This document shows, one piece after another, positions 23,612 to 34,058 of a stretch of DNA of 64,000 nt (position 1 is its first letter; every line of letters begins with the position of its first letter). The notes under the pieces are model-generated. The model was given only the letters and a program-made list of their open reading frames with translations, had not been told where the DNA came from and did not search any database. The position numbers and the translations under genes are program-made. Origin of the DNA: Mesodorylaimus sp. YZB2_4. Its lineage: Eukaryota; Nematoda; Enoplea; Dorylaimida; Dorylaimidae. Location of the stretch: contig JASANH010000691.1 in NCBI GenBank assembly GCA_030248295.1, positions 1 through 64,000 on the forward strand, written 5' to 3'.

Positions 23612-24272
23612 AGAATTGATCAGCCATCGAACTCGTCCGCGACTGGATCACAGAATCGCCAGTCGTGGACCCCGTTTCGCATCCATTACGTCATGGCGCC
23701 CGGCTCGACTCGAGCAAACGAGGCTGCCTTGGACCATGCTTTTAAAACAGTTAATGACAAGTTAAGTCAAATTTTAAGAGCTATACCGCTGGATGATGTG
23801 CGCTATCCACGATATTGGAAGACTCCTAATACTGGCTGCGAGCTCCCTGCAAAGTGCAGGGACTTTGAGATTCACAGAAATTACTTGAGCCCTTGTCGAA
23901 TCAACAGCACCTACACAGTTCTCGAGGATGGTGTATCCAGATATGGTCCGAGCCCTGAAGCACAAGCAGCGAACAATAGAAAGCCTCATGTGGTCATATT
24001 TGTAAGAGTTGTTAGCCCAAATAATCGAAGCGGCTGTGGCGAAGATATTGGTGCCCTCGCAAGTATTTGTAATTCTCATATTTTGACGAATCGGGCGTTA
24101 CATGGTGTAGTTACTTTTTGCACTCAGCCTAGCCATAAGGCAGATAATGGGACTGCATTATTGCTGCATGAAACTCTGCACATTCTTACTGATGCATCAT
24201 TATTCAATTATCGCTCCCCATATTTGAATCCTTTATCAGCAAATCTAAGAAAAACTGACGATTATGAGCGAG
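23612..24272 (+). CDS. M8 protease, exon with HEXXH active site
   Basis: The open frame continues upstream of ATG 23,693 (PFRIHYV before it resembles the start of the M8 mature region), so that ATG is not the true start. The conserved Cys pattern includes [21 protein letters not shown] and GVVTFC. The active-site helix [10 protein letters not shown] is at 24,158-24,190, with zinc-binding His at 24,167-24,169 and 24,179-24,181 and catalytic Glu at 24,170-24,172. It ends at a strong donor (GAG then GTAAGT) at 24,273 in phase 1. The 5' limit given is only the first codon after an in-frame TAG. Confidence 0.82.
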
Positions 24273-33200: not shown

Positions 33201-34058
33201 AATATTCTTGATTGAAAAGTTCGGAGGGACCACTGGGAAATTAAAATGTGACTTTCACTTGATTGAGATTGAGATAGCAGGCCAAAGTTTTGAATACCTC
33301 CTTCTGGGATTGTGAATCTGAATAACATTCTCTTTTTTCAATATCCCAACATCGATTTTACAGTGCACTTCGTGTTTAGGTTGGTATCGCCCACTAAATA
33401 TACATGGCTTCACCCGTAGGAGTGAGAATGGCAGGTGTTTTACAGATCCAATGTATCCGTGCTATACTAAAAATGAAATTAACACCAATCAATACCGCAA
33501 CAAGTCGACGACGTGGAGTGGTCGACAATGCCAGAACTGGCAGTCTCAGACACCGCATAAGCATGGTTTTAGGTCAGTTATAGCCAGTGTGTGAACCTGC
33601 ACCAAACTTGAGCATGTTGCTTCAGCTCTCAGGGCAACCACAATTTCTGTCGCAATCCCGACGGATACTCCAATGGGCCATGGTGTTTTACAACTGATAG
33701 TGCAGTTCGATACGAGGCATGCTCCTACGCATGCGAGAACACGCCAGGTTCGTCTACTGTACAGTAACAGGTTTTAACCAGCACAAATTTTTTTCCTGAT
33801 ACAAATTTTTTACCAAAATATGATTGGGGCTCCTTAAACTGCCGCCAGCCAGTCAAAGGAGATTTAATCTGTCCAGATTATTATTCAGTTTGCGAGAAGC
33901 CCGGTGGGGCGGGTGAAGTGTCGGCTGTCAAAAAGCCAGTCGATTCCGAGTCATCCGCCACAAGAATCACAGGCTTTTTCGAAACAGTCAATGCTGTGAT
34001 CGTGATCGCAATACTGGCAACGACGCGCTACTTTCTTTTGACTAGACACCTTCATTAA
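23612..34058 (+). CDS. Leishmanolysin-like (M8) zinc metalloprotease with an inserted kringle domain, multi-exon
   Basis: Inferred exons: up to 24,272; 25,295-25,778; 30,131-30,455; 33,446-33,572; 33,626-33,747; 33,853-34,058. Junction phases agree throughout (1, 0, 1, 2, 1), and every junction is GT..AG. The catalytic exons have HEXXH (HETLH), the third His in SAHW and the Met-turn in DEIM, as in leishmanolysin/invadolysin peptidases, which cleave extracellular or cell-surface proteins. A Cys-rich exon follows, then a complete kringle, then the [12 protein letters not shown] block typical of the M8 C-terminus and a hydrophobic end suggesting membrane or GPI attachment. A 1-nt deletion near 25,548 breaks the frame, although splice sites elsewhere are intact. 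This means either a recent pseudogene or a sequence error. The N-terminus is unresolved. Introns of 4.4 and 3.0 kb are filled with repeats. Confidence 0.8.
24725..24814 (+). CDS. Possible optional 90-nt exon of the M8 gene
   Basis: A stop-free segment between a weak acceptor (ACTCGAG) and a donor (CTAG then GTAAAT). It is in phase 1 at both ends, so inclusion or exclusion keeps the frame. The neighbouring exons join well without it, and it has no clear counterpart in the family, so it may be chance. Confidence 0.2.
24925..25212. repeat. Small palindromic (foldback) element in an M8 intron
   Basis: About 24,925-25,010 matches 25,118-25,212 in reverse complement, sharing CGAACTTCGCAA, AAAGAAAGCT and TGTGCAAAAT. 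A diverged relative is near 32,170-32,310 in a later intron of the same gene (AGCTTTCTTTTGCAC, TTGACGGTTGGCGATGCTC). It has the look of a MITE family; terminal duplications are not clear. Confidence 0.55.
25295..25778 (+). CDS. M8 protease exon with third zinc His and Met-turn; carries a frameshift
   Basis: Preceded by a good acceptor (CTCGCTTTGCTTTTAG) in phase 1 and followed by CAG then GTAAAG in phase 0. It encodes a block typical of M8 proteins ([12 protein letters not shown], then [17 protein letters not shown]) and, one base out of frame, [20 protein letters not shown]. The exon is 484 nt where 485 would fit both phases, so exactly one base is missing, next to 25,548. A stop at 25,567-25,569 follows in the upstream frame. 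The His at 25,501-25,503 is the expected third zinc ligand. Confidence 0.8.
25779..26340. other. Start of a 4.35-kb intron, no repeat recognised
   Basis: The open frame of the previous exon continues to a stop at 25,905-25,907, beyond the donor; this is probably intron read-through. I see nothing else in it. Confidence 0.35.
26341..26460. repeat. GGATC/GATCC satellite-like block
   Basis: Irregular runs of CCGATCC and GGATCGGAT with CATCGACCGATCC at one edge. The block at 27,303-27,445 is the inverted counterpart, sharing GGATCGGTCGATGCTGG. Confidence 0.65.
26461..26958. other. Intronic interval between the two GGATC blocks
   Basis: A 74-codon frame on the + strand at 26,613-26,837 begins [14 protein letters not shown] and is acidic, but has no recognised domain or splice context. 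Otherwise nothing is seen. Confidence 0.25.
26959..27043 (-). other. tRNA-like (SINE or tRNA relic), second type
   Basis: On the minus strand there is an A-box-like TAGCCTGCGGTAG and a B-box-like GAGAGTTCGACTCTC. The intact T-loop TTCGACT is closed by a four-of-five-pair stem, and a long variable arm recalls Leu/Ser-type tRNAs. No good acceptor stem is present, so it is likely a pseudo-tRNA or SINE head. It lies on the opposite strand inside an intron of the M8 gene. Confidence 0.4.
27303..27445. repeat. GGATCGGATC satellite-like block, inverted relative to 26,341-26,460
   Basis: Tandem GGATCGGATCGG with GGATCGGGATC variants. In the minus strand it translates as repeating DPIRSDPA, but this is a consequence of the 5- and 10-base periodicity. 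Confidence 0.7.
27730..27909 (+). repeat. GC-rich direct repeat, copy 1, with conserved hairpins
   Basis: Shares CGCCTGGTAGGCCATTGCGAGT, CTGGCTGGGAGA, CCCCTCGGGTTGATGTTT, CCGACTTCGG and GCCTGCCAGGCTTGGTTACA with copy 2 about 430 bp downstream. It contains a 7-bp hairpin (TCAACCC, CTC, GGGTTGA) at about 27,793-27,809 and a second small hairpin at CCGACTTCGG. Composition is markedly more GC-rich than the surroundings. Confidence 0.7.
28159..28330 (+). repeat. GC-rich direct repeat, copy 2
   Basis: Diverged partner of 27,730-27,909. The main hairpin keeps pairing although one stem base differs (TCGACCC opposite GGGTTGA, giving a G-T wobble). The two copies flank about 250 bp of equally GC-rich DNA. 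Confidence 0.7.
28590..28699. repeat. (ATCAAY)n microsatellite followed by a run of 18 C
   Basis: Repeats of ATCAAC and ATCAAT at about 28,600-28,632, then an uninterrupted C tract at 28,682-28,699. Comparable C tracts occur at 31,818-31,835 (18), 56,255-56,268 (14) and 38,215-38,226 (12). Confidence 0.8.
28895..29415 (+). repeat. Pair of ~105-bp direct repeats 414 bp apart
   Basis: About 28,895-29,000 and 29,312-29,415 share AAAAATGCGA, GAGAAA..TTGAAT/TTAAAT and GCCTGTGATGCGCAGGA-type wording, each followed by TACTGTAAC. Between them lies an interspersed repeat block starting GCATACCGTATTTCCTCGAA with C-rich runs (29,041-29,190). That opening resembles a widespread class of animal repeats whose ends begin CCGTATTTxCTCGAAT. 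Confidence 0.55.
29402..29842 (-). CDS. FLYWCH-type zinc-finger-like reading frame
   Basis: An open frame of 146 codons on the minus strand, inside an M8 intron. It starts CxxC-rich ([13 protein letters not shown]). It then shows the FLYWCH/MULE-type pattern: an aromatic-rich strand before SYFACRGCM, then a stretch [12 protein letters not shown] and a His-containing end (GHSPNCN). A helical segment follows, like those after FLYWCH domains ([12 protein letters not shown]). FLYWCH fingers bind DNA and are common in Mutator-like transposases and their host-derived relatives. The partner domains are not seen, so this is a fragment or a single exon. The family assignment is by motif only. Confidence 0.45.
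   Translation of the reverse strand: MKKRICACRQCFFGECIRMAAADFGEAAFSFTKHLKAQLLIFECAQRPGFYFTFEKKSAKRSSNGAETSYFACRGCMIGNAGSVGGVARVTVRDGRIVTDPSRGHSPNCNLMRKADVEARKIFQEARNKCRTEAKRPMTSYREALQ
29984..30051 (+). repeat. 17-bp minisatellite, four units
   Basis: GTGGGGGAA units start at 29,984, 30,001, 30,018 and 30,035 with a strict 17-bp period; the last five or so bases vary between units. Confidence 0.85.
30131..30455 (+). CDS. M8 protease Cys-rich exon
   Basis: Acceptor GAAGCTTTTCAG, phase 0 in; donor CATTT then GTAAGC, phase 1 out. It continues the catalytic exon with [13 protein letters not shown], the usual order after the FCDP block of M8 proteins. It later has [20 protein letters not shown] and ETC, the conserved Cys pair before the final M8 segment. 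The frame remains open beyond the donor for about 40 codons, but that extension has no similarity to the family. Confidence 0.75.
30545..30905. mobile_element. Small element with CCTGACCCGA-rich ends
   Basis: The left edge has CCGACCTGACCCGAGACC; the right edge has CCTGACCCAACC and GACCTGATCCGACCCAAG. The interior is AT-rich and non-coding. Both edges are in the same word family, so this is plausibly a non-autonomous hAT-type element. Exact ends and target duplication were not defined. Confidence 0.4.
30906..32585. other. Middle of the 3.0-kb M8 intron
   Basis: Short frames on both strands (31,250-31,503, 31,916-32,198, 32,259-32,655) are without recognisable motifs. It contains a C tract at 31,818-31,835 and a diverged relative of the foldback element of 24,925-25,212 at about 32,170-32,310. 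Confidence 0.35.
32588..32715. mobile_element. ~128-bp foldback MITE
   Basis: GTCAGTTTCACAG..AGGACATGTCC at the left pairs with GGACATGTCCT..TGTGAAACTGAC at the right, 22-24 of 28 positions. A G-run lies in the centre. No target duplication is apparent. Confidence 0.55.
32716..33445. other. Last part of the M8 intron before the kringle exons
   Basis: A 121-codon + strand frame (32,728-33,093) is unrecognised and ends before any splice site that would connect it in phase. Nothing else is identified. Confidence 0.3.
33446..33572 (+). CDS. Kringle domain, first half (exon of the M8 gene)
   Basis: Acceptor GGTGTTTTACAG; phase 1 in, matching the phase 1 end of the Cys-rich exon. It encodes PCYTK (kringle Cys 1), then [17 protein letters not shown] (Cys 2 and the PHxH motif), which is the standard kringle N-terminal half. 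Donor TTTTAG then GTCAGT, phase 2 out. Confidence 0.88.
33626..33747 (+). CDS. Kringle domain, second half (exon of the M8 gene)
   Basis: A 53-nt intron separates it from the first half (acceptor GTTGCTTCAG). It encodes [16 protein letters not shown] and RYEACSYAC, giving Cys 3 to 6. First to sixth Cys spans 74 residues, against roughly 78-80 in typical kringles; the shortfall is between PHKH and NFC. Donor CCAG then GTTCGT, phase 1 out. Kringles bind proteins, small ligands or membranes and have no catalytic role. Confidence 0.88.
33853..34058 (+). CDS. M8 protease C-terminal exon with hydrophobic anchor
   Basis: Acceptor CCGCCAGCCAG, phase 1 in; 67 codons and a TAA at 34,056-34,058. [13 protein letters not shown] corresponds to the CPxYxxVC block just before the anchor in leishmanolysin-type proteases. 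A charged spacer and a hydrophobic stretch ([11 protein letters not shown]) with a short basic tail follow, suggesting a type I membrane anchor or GPI signal. AATAAA at 34,194-34,199 is a plausible poly(A) signal. Confidence 0.75.

Follow-up and report, generated by a model that had tools for sequence, protein, structure and literature searches.

A kringle domain within a leishmanolysin-type protease family of the nematode Mesodorylaimus: probable gain by exon shuffling and a likely pseudogene copy

Introduction

Leishmanolysins, the metalloproteases of peptidase family M8, are known chiefly as virulence factors on the surface of Leishmania, and the family has undergone expansion in flatworm parasites. 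The kringle is best known from vertebrate clotting proteins. Here we examine a locus of the nematode Mesodorylaimus sp. YZB2_4 at which exons of both kinds lie in one series. The locus is found in a stretch of 64,000 nucleotides, hereafter the window, which is positions 1 to 64000 of contig JASANH010000691.1 (C269) in assembly GCA_030248295.1 (145,146,385 bases in 1067 contigs). As judged from sequence, the locus is likely to be a pseudogene copy belonging to a real family of M8 metalloproteases into which one kringle was brought by exon shuffling.

The closest described protease is the M8 leishmanolysin/invadolysin (LMLN), with which the family shares the HEXXH motif, the distal HW, the Met-turn region, the GWY block, the Cys-rich part, the final Cys pair, and a signal-peptide-like start; it differs in that a kringle separates the Cys-rich part from that final pair. 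The kringle itself resembles those of plasminogen, HGF, prothrombin, and ROR in its six cysteines and its CRNPDxxxxxPWC(F/Y)TTD core, but it lies within a metalloprotease, has lost the second Asp, and has a shorter 30s loop. Astacins (M12A) are likewise secreted metzincins with shuffled downstream modules; unlike the present family, they form another peptidase family, and in one astacin gene of this genome (L005) the kringle is followed by CUB. A figure legend in a review lists KRING among astacin domains, the species being unspecified there (PMC9848320), and, to the extent of that legend, the astacin-kringle combination is therefore already in print. Class 1-1 modules of Metazoa are described in a review (PMC8001218) as having phase-1 introns at both ends. 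The kringle exons studied here are flanked in the same way, and their case differs from ordinary class 1-1 shuffling in that kringle-less paralogues retain the receiving intron and the genome also contains a candidate donor family.

Among open-access papers, none was found that pairs leishmanolysin or Peptidase_M8 with a kringle, and none that joins kringle domain, metalloprotease, and nematode genome; the only kringle paper among those listed for invadolysin, GP63, or M8 metallo concerns complement receptor 3. The initial annotation of the window, made by a model from the letters alone, had stated that it knew of no description of this architecture, which is consistent with the open-access literature, subscription papers and domain databases being outside reach. 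What appears to be new is an M8 protease family with a kringle architecture and a clear shuffling history; the M8 and kringle families themselves are known.

Results

Whole paralogues with M8 and kringle domains

Profile searches of the genome returned at least 39 kringle matches and at least 61 M8 matches, indicating that M8 proteases are greatly expanded; the same assembly has 133 matches to the cuticle-collagen N domain. A Chitin_bind_4 search gave none, which carries little weight because it registered nothing anywhere; both outcomes fit a nematode. We surveyed 20 stretches of 10 kb around kringle matches with the window's exon peptides as queries. The order HEXXH, SAHW to GWY, Cys-rich segment, kringle half 1, kringle half 2, and CPDY was found on C180 (six copies), C747, C24, C338, and C453, and it recurs in part again on C747, C24, and C269. 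Because an identical exon order recurs across many paralogues of the genome, the exon series of the window is far beyond chance. From their GT-AG splice sites we built models of ten further copies, all outside the window, and seven of them are whole (C338, five on C180, and C453), with six exons and 714 to 731 amino acids (aa). The spliced protein of C338 (719 aa) scores 63 bits with PF01457 and 46.8 bits with PF00051, above the curated cut-offs of 21 and 34.3 bits, respectively, and it has both HEXXH and the distal third His, which places it in peptidase family M8. All four proteins that were scanned out of the seven match both Pfam families at an E value of ≤0.01. That a kringle had been inserted ahead of the C-terminal block of an M8 protease, as the initial annotation proposed, is thus borne out by paralogues holding both domains in one spliced frame, with the kringle preceding the last Cys pair, and the kringle-M8 architecture is, from these models, almost certainly real. 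The proof is carried by the family; the window copy alone is modest evidence.

How widespread is the combination within this genome? A kringle lies downstream of 24 of the 61 M8 matches (within 12 kb, on the same strand, and with no M8 match between). By our own sorting, the 15 kringle matches that are not paired with M8 comprise four 3' ends of M8-kringle genes (the window, C269:111890, C747:9434, and C211:80584), five matches in four astacin genes, and six elsewhere. The M8-kringle loci thus number about 28 (24 + 4), fragments counted. An invadolysin-type gene of the same genome (L034, named by eye) has no kringle match downstream. Groups of M8 matches without a kringle match were also seen on C103 (170 to 243 kb), C63 (271 to 285 kb), and C34 (531 to 540 kb).

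Searches of a set of 5.8 billion proteins for distant homologues gave none, whether with exon 1 (265 candidates), with the C338 protein (8000 scored), or with an alignment of the four proteins at E values up to 1 (8000 candidates scored); ordinary kringle proteins are absent from the results too, so that animal proteins seem to be poorly represented in this set, which makes it uninformative on taxonomic spread. An NCBIfam scan of the four proteins and a distant-mode search of a phage collection gave no match.

Intron phases and phylogeny

In the M8-kringle models, the kringle exon pair has phase-1 introns on both flanks and a phase-2 intron inside. Six kringle-less M8 loci (L029 to L034) were fetched for comparison. 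Of the five examined for the intron between the Cys-rich exon and the tail, four (L029, L030, L031, and L033) have one of phase 1, as read by eye from printed frames; L032 has a matching tail without a clear junction. The 1-1 phased kringle exons, together with the phase-1 intron that kringle-less relatives have at this site, suggest that the kringle came by exon shuffling, as the initial annotation had supposed, and that the intron which received it can still be seen.

A tree of exon 2 was built from 51 rows of the 61 M8 matches over 166 columns, leaving out eight unfetched matches, the invadolysin row, one row of fewer than 100 residues, and the broken exon of the window. The 24 kringle-linked rows all group in a single clade with 31 members (support, 100/98); none of the other 20 rows has a kringle match. 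The simplest reading of this tree is one kringle entry followed by multiplication.

Kringles in astacin genes and elsewhere

Astacin matches lie 85 to ~610 nt upstream of a kringle in four genes: two on C270, one on C14, and one on C23 (Table 1). In L005, one of the two on C270, the astacin pieces reach 71 bits at best, the kringle halves 24.2 and 30.3 bits, each below the whole-domain cut-off, and CUB 45.3 bits. Phase-1 flanks are present in all three loci read (L005, L072, and L074), and L074 also has the inner phase-2 intron, placed at the same residue; L072 (C23) lacks it, and L005 gives no clear reading there. The M8 and astacin kringles have a mean identity of 54%, with a gap of about seven residues common to both, compared to 39% identity between the M8 kringles and three other kringles of the genome, one of them partial. 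Since the same genome has astacins with a related 1-1 phased kringle, the module was probably passed between these two metzincin families.

The six kringle matches in other genes lie on C128, C125, C9 (twice), and C123 (twice). By eye, the one at C128:66202-66423 (L001) stands between C-type-lectin-like and LDLa-like stretches, and those on C125 and C9 precede hydrophobic stretches.

Conservation and binding site of the kringle

The seven whole copies were compared in 21 pairs. The kringle is the most conserved part of the protein, with a mean identity of 84% compared to 53% for exon 1, 64% for exon 2, 56% for exon 3, and 48% for the tail. The corresponding median dN/dS values, which are rough because dS is near saturation, are 0.10 for the kringle (16 of 21 pairs; dS saturated and the ratio undefined in five), 0.24 for exon 1, 0.18 for exon 2 (one pair undefined), 0.26 for exon 3, and 0.49 for the tail (one pair without a usable ratio). 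At 0.57, the uncorrected synonymous difference (pS) of the kringle is much the same as in exons 1 to 3 (0.58 to 0.64), which makes gene conversion an unlikely cause of the conservation.

All six kringle cysteines are invariant in the whole copies. Searched against solved structures, the kringle matches plasminogen, HGF, prothrombin, and ROR best (best 60 of 79 matches). We take the lysine site to consist of a D-x-D anionic motif, a cation of the 30s loop, a Trp/aromatic trough, and an Arg. The Trp and Phe/Tyr positions are kept, as is the Arg in most copies; the second Asp is replaced (by Tyr in most aligned copies), leaving the motif incomplete, and the 30s loop is about seven residues shorter than in the other kringle types aligned from the genome. 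The loss of this Asp and of the loop residues suggests that the ligand is likely to be something other than a C-terminal lysine.

Predicted activity of the protease part

HEXXH is present in all 11 first exons of kringle genes that reach the site, the window included (HETLH in 10, HEALH in 1), and the HW of the third His is present in all 24 kringle-linked rows of exon 2. The Met-turn has Met in 21 of these rows and Leu in 3, so the copies may differ in activity. The pro-region CGG is invariant in the four sequences aligned, and the seven whole copies have 28 invariant cysteines overall. Whole copies have a hydrophobic, signal-peptide-like start, and their C termini are short and hydrophobic with 0 to 8 residues beyond, resembling the signals of a putative glycosylphosphatidylinositol (GPI) anchor. 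The cell-surface location given in the initial annotation has its sole basis in these two features, the start and the short hydrophobic C terminus.

The window copy and its sister locus

Every element of the plus-strand exon series listed in the initial annotation is present in the window (Table 1), from HEXXH through SAHW, Met-turn, and GWY, the Cys-rich segment, and two kringle half-exons with the six conserved Cys, to the CPDYYSVC tail and its hydrophobic end. The phases, said there to agree throughout, do not: exon 1 has a stop, exon 2 changes frame, and the tail lacks an in-phase acceptor. Two of the boundaries first proposed are a consequence of these lesions. The start at 23612 lies directly after the in-frame stop, exon 1 actually beginning at the ATG upstream, and the acceptor at 33,853 is another AG farther downstream, at which part of the tail exon is lost, the family's place being near 33812. 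The donor of exon 3, put at 30455, corresponds in the paralogue models to 30470. Scanning the window exons with PF01457 and PF00051 supported the domain assignments in part: the second piece of exon 2 and the second kringle half exceed the cut-offs (22.2 and 37.1 bits), and the first piece of exon 2 and the first kringle half fall below them (17.7 and 21.9 bits). Exon 2 of a whole paralogue alone scores 59.8 bits with PF01457 (versus 17.7 for the first part in the window). Exon 1, exon 3, and the tail of the window gave zero Pfam matches when scanned singly, and an Rfam scan of the window at the gathering threshold found nothing.

Table 1 Features of the window and astacin-kringle genes of the assembly
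Feature	Coordinates	Strand	Remarks
Exon 1 (broken)	23444..24272	+	ATG 23444, signal-peptide-like start, pro-region with CGG, HEXXH; donor 24273
Lesion 1, in-frame stop codon	23609..23611	+	Absent from the C24 sister locus
Exon 2, first part	25295..25545	+	Third zinc His (SAHW), Met-turn (DEIM); PF01457 17.7 bits
Lesion 2, frame break relative to whole paralogues	25546..25547	+	Whole paralogues read through
Exon 2, second part, other frame	25548..25778	+	GWY block to DLWQ, donor phase 0; PF01457 22.2 bits
Exon 3	30131..30470	+	M8 Cys-rich segment, donor phase 1; alone without Pfam match
Exon 4, kringle half 1	33446..33572	+	Acceptor phase 1, donor phase 2; PF00051 21.9 bits
Exon 5, kringle half 2	33626..33747	+	3' donor phase 1 (GTTCGT, weak); PF00051 37.1 bits at 33630-33725
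Lesion 3, place of the family's exon 6 3' splice acceptor	33812..33813	+	No in-phase AG within 40 nt
Exon 6-like tail	33814..34058	+	KYDW, CPDYYSVC, hydrophobic C terminus, then stop
Astacin-kringle genes (four)	C270:51754-52455, C270:87283-88354, C14:301229-301955, C23:655438-656171		Loci read: L005, L072, L074

On C24, a sister locus matches the window at an identity of 98% over exon 1 (C24:923843-924678, open through HEXXH), 96% over exon 2, and 95% over window positions 30000 to 34600. Its exons 1 and 2 are open, it shows none of the three lesions at the sites read, and its acceptor for the tail exon is present and in phase. The match extends past the gene on both sides in the same order, from ~22,990 to 36,900 in the window and C24:912,499-925,124, at 89 to 98% over the pieces compared. 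The window copy lacks the open frame and intact splice sites of a functional gene, and we hold with high confidence that it is a pseudogene or a null allele. It thus appears not to be the coding gene for which it was first taken.

Repeats and mobile elements around the window copy

By eye, GATCGGATCGG-type repetitive tracts lie at 26330 to 26460 and 27300 to 27450, within the intron between exons 2 and 3 of the pseudogene, and long C runs lie in the gene's introns at 28683 to 28699 and 31818 to 31836, possible soft spots of the assembly. Pieces of LINE type occur near the pseudogene at 20425 to 22780 (minus strand) and 13662 to 15725 (plus strand), both with an endonuclease match (PF03372), and the latter with a reverse transcriptase (PF00078) at 15057 to 15725. 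Farther downstream, a 1.9-kb element (42465 to 44350) with inverted arms of 100 nt (42465 to 42564 and 43143 to 43242) is nested in a repeat with inverted arms of 192 nt (38834 to 39025 and 40565 to 40756). The genome has at least 20 full-length copies of the 1.9-kb element at 97 to 100% identity and at least 11 split ones, and both repeats are recently active transposons. A search with the flank from 38 to 48 kb was swamped by transposons, with 39 of 3167 candidates scored and the query's own place missing from the list.

Discussion

Could the kringle exons form a separate neighbouring gene, chained to the M8 exons by accident? The window copy gives some room for this, with 2,975 nt between exon 3 (30470) and the kringle (33446) and, within them, repeats with matches at many sites in the genome. 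In all seven whole paralogues, by contrast, the gap from the Cys-rich exon is only 47 to 65 nt, the phases fit, and the M8 tail exon follows 57 to 295 nt after the kringle, meaning that the kringle is hardly another gene's and that an accidental chain is exceedingly improbable. Independent insertions, or loss of the kringle from a kringle-bearing ancestor, would replace the single gain with several events, and parsimony on the labels does count six changes, because 7 of the 31 clade members show no kringle match. These seven rows nest inside the kringle clade, though, and the 20 rows outside it are uniformly without a match; of the three rows read further, C246_133k has the beginning of a kringle, C229_47k shows just a tail piece in 3 kb, and C677_24k has no kringle within 3 kb. 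We regard a history of multiple events as improbable, and a single shuffling event as very likely on the tree and the intron phases. Several points, the seven rows included, weigh against the account of a real family with one shuffled kringle. The architecture is predicted from gene models, and among the ten copies outside the window C747b and C24a are broken in exon 2 and C180_13k is unresolved. Taken singly, exons 1 and 3 do not match the M8 Pfam profile, either in the window or in a whole paralogue; exons 1 and 2 of the window, searched singly against solved structures, gave zero M8 structures; and with the profile the best 60 of 93 matches to solved structures are all kringle proteins, with no leishmanolysin. 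All three rows with Leu at the Met-turn are whole copies (Met in four of the seven, Leu in three), the dN/dS ratios are rough, and the kringle tree, made of short sequences, is weakly resolved, with one starred branch of 15 and the donor direction undecided.

If the family is real, the window copy might still be a working gene whose three lesions are errors of assembly or sequencing, and a sister on C24 that is 95 to 98% identical and free of all three would fit such errors. The lesions are independent and of three different kinds, however, and 2 of the 10 other modelled copies are also broken, so that we find errors very unlikely as the explanation. The relation of the two loci is less clear: since the match continues beyond the gene on both sides, they may be duplicates or two haplotypes. 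In the latter case they would be alleles, or haplotigs, of one locus, and the window would hold a null allele and not a duplicate gene. The kept order on both sides, at 89 to 98%, fits this; beyond the exons, an identity of 89 to 95% is less than would be expected of alleles, if still possible in a nematode, and we give the allelic relation somewhat less than an even chance.

What would the kringle do for such an enzyme? The whole sister genes would encode secreted or GPI-anchored zymogens, with the conserved pro-region CGG cysteine as a candidate cysteine switch. Because the kringle is best conserved and the protease and tail diverge, it may act as an exosite for docking, through which many divergent protease domains reach a single shared ligand, a role for which the chances seem to us evenly balanced. 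The kringle might instead be purely structural, serving as a spacer or disulfide clamp and binding no ligand. The missing second Asp and the missing part of the 30s loop would suit a spacer; its residues outside the Cys frame are conserved too, at 84% versus 53 to 64% in exons 1 to 3, and we think a purely structural role rather unlikely. For the docking exosite, the common ligand would perhaps lie on a cuticle, microbe, or host surface.

More broadly, we tentatively propose that a short-loop kringle that does not bind lysine may serve two unrelated families of metzincins in one nematode lineage as a common module for targeting. It would have moved between an astacin and an M8 protease as a 1-1 cassette and then driven a radiation to at least ~28 M8-kringle loci, the kringle staying constant as the protease face diversifies. 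A module of clotting proteins would thus sit on leishmanolysins, in a shuffling case where one genome shows the receiving intron, the cassette that was inserted, and, in its astacin-kringle genes, a candidate donor family. A constant binding module joined to varying enzymes leads to the prediction that these proteases would share one ligand and act on many substrates.

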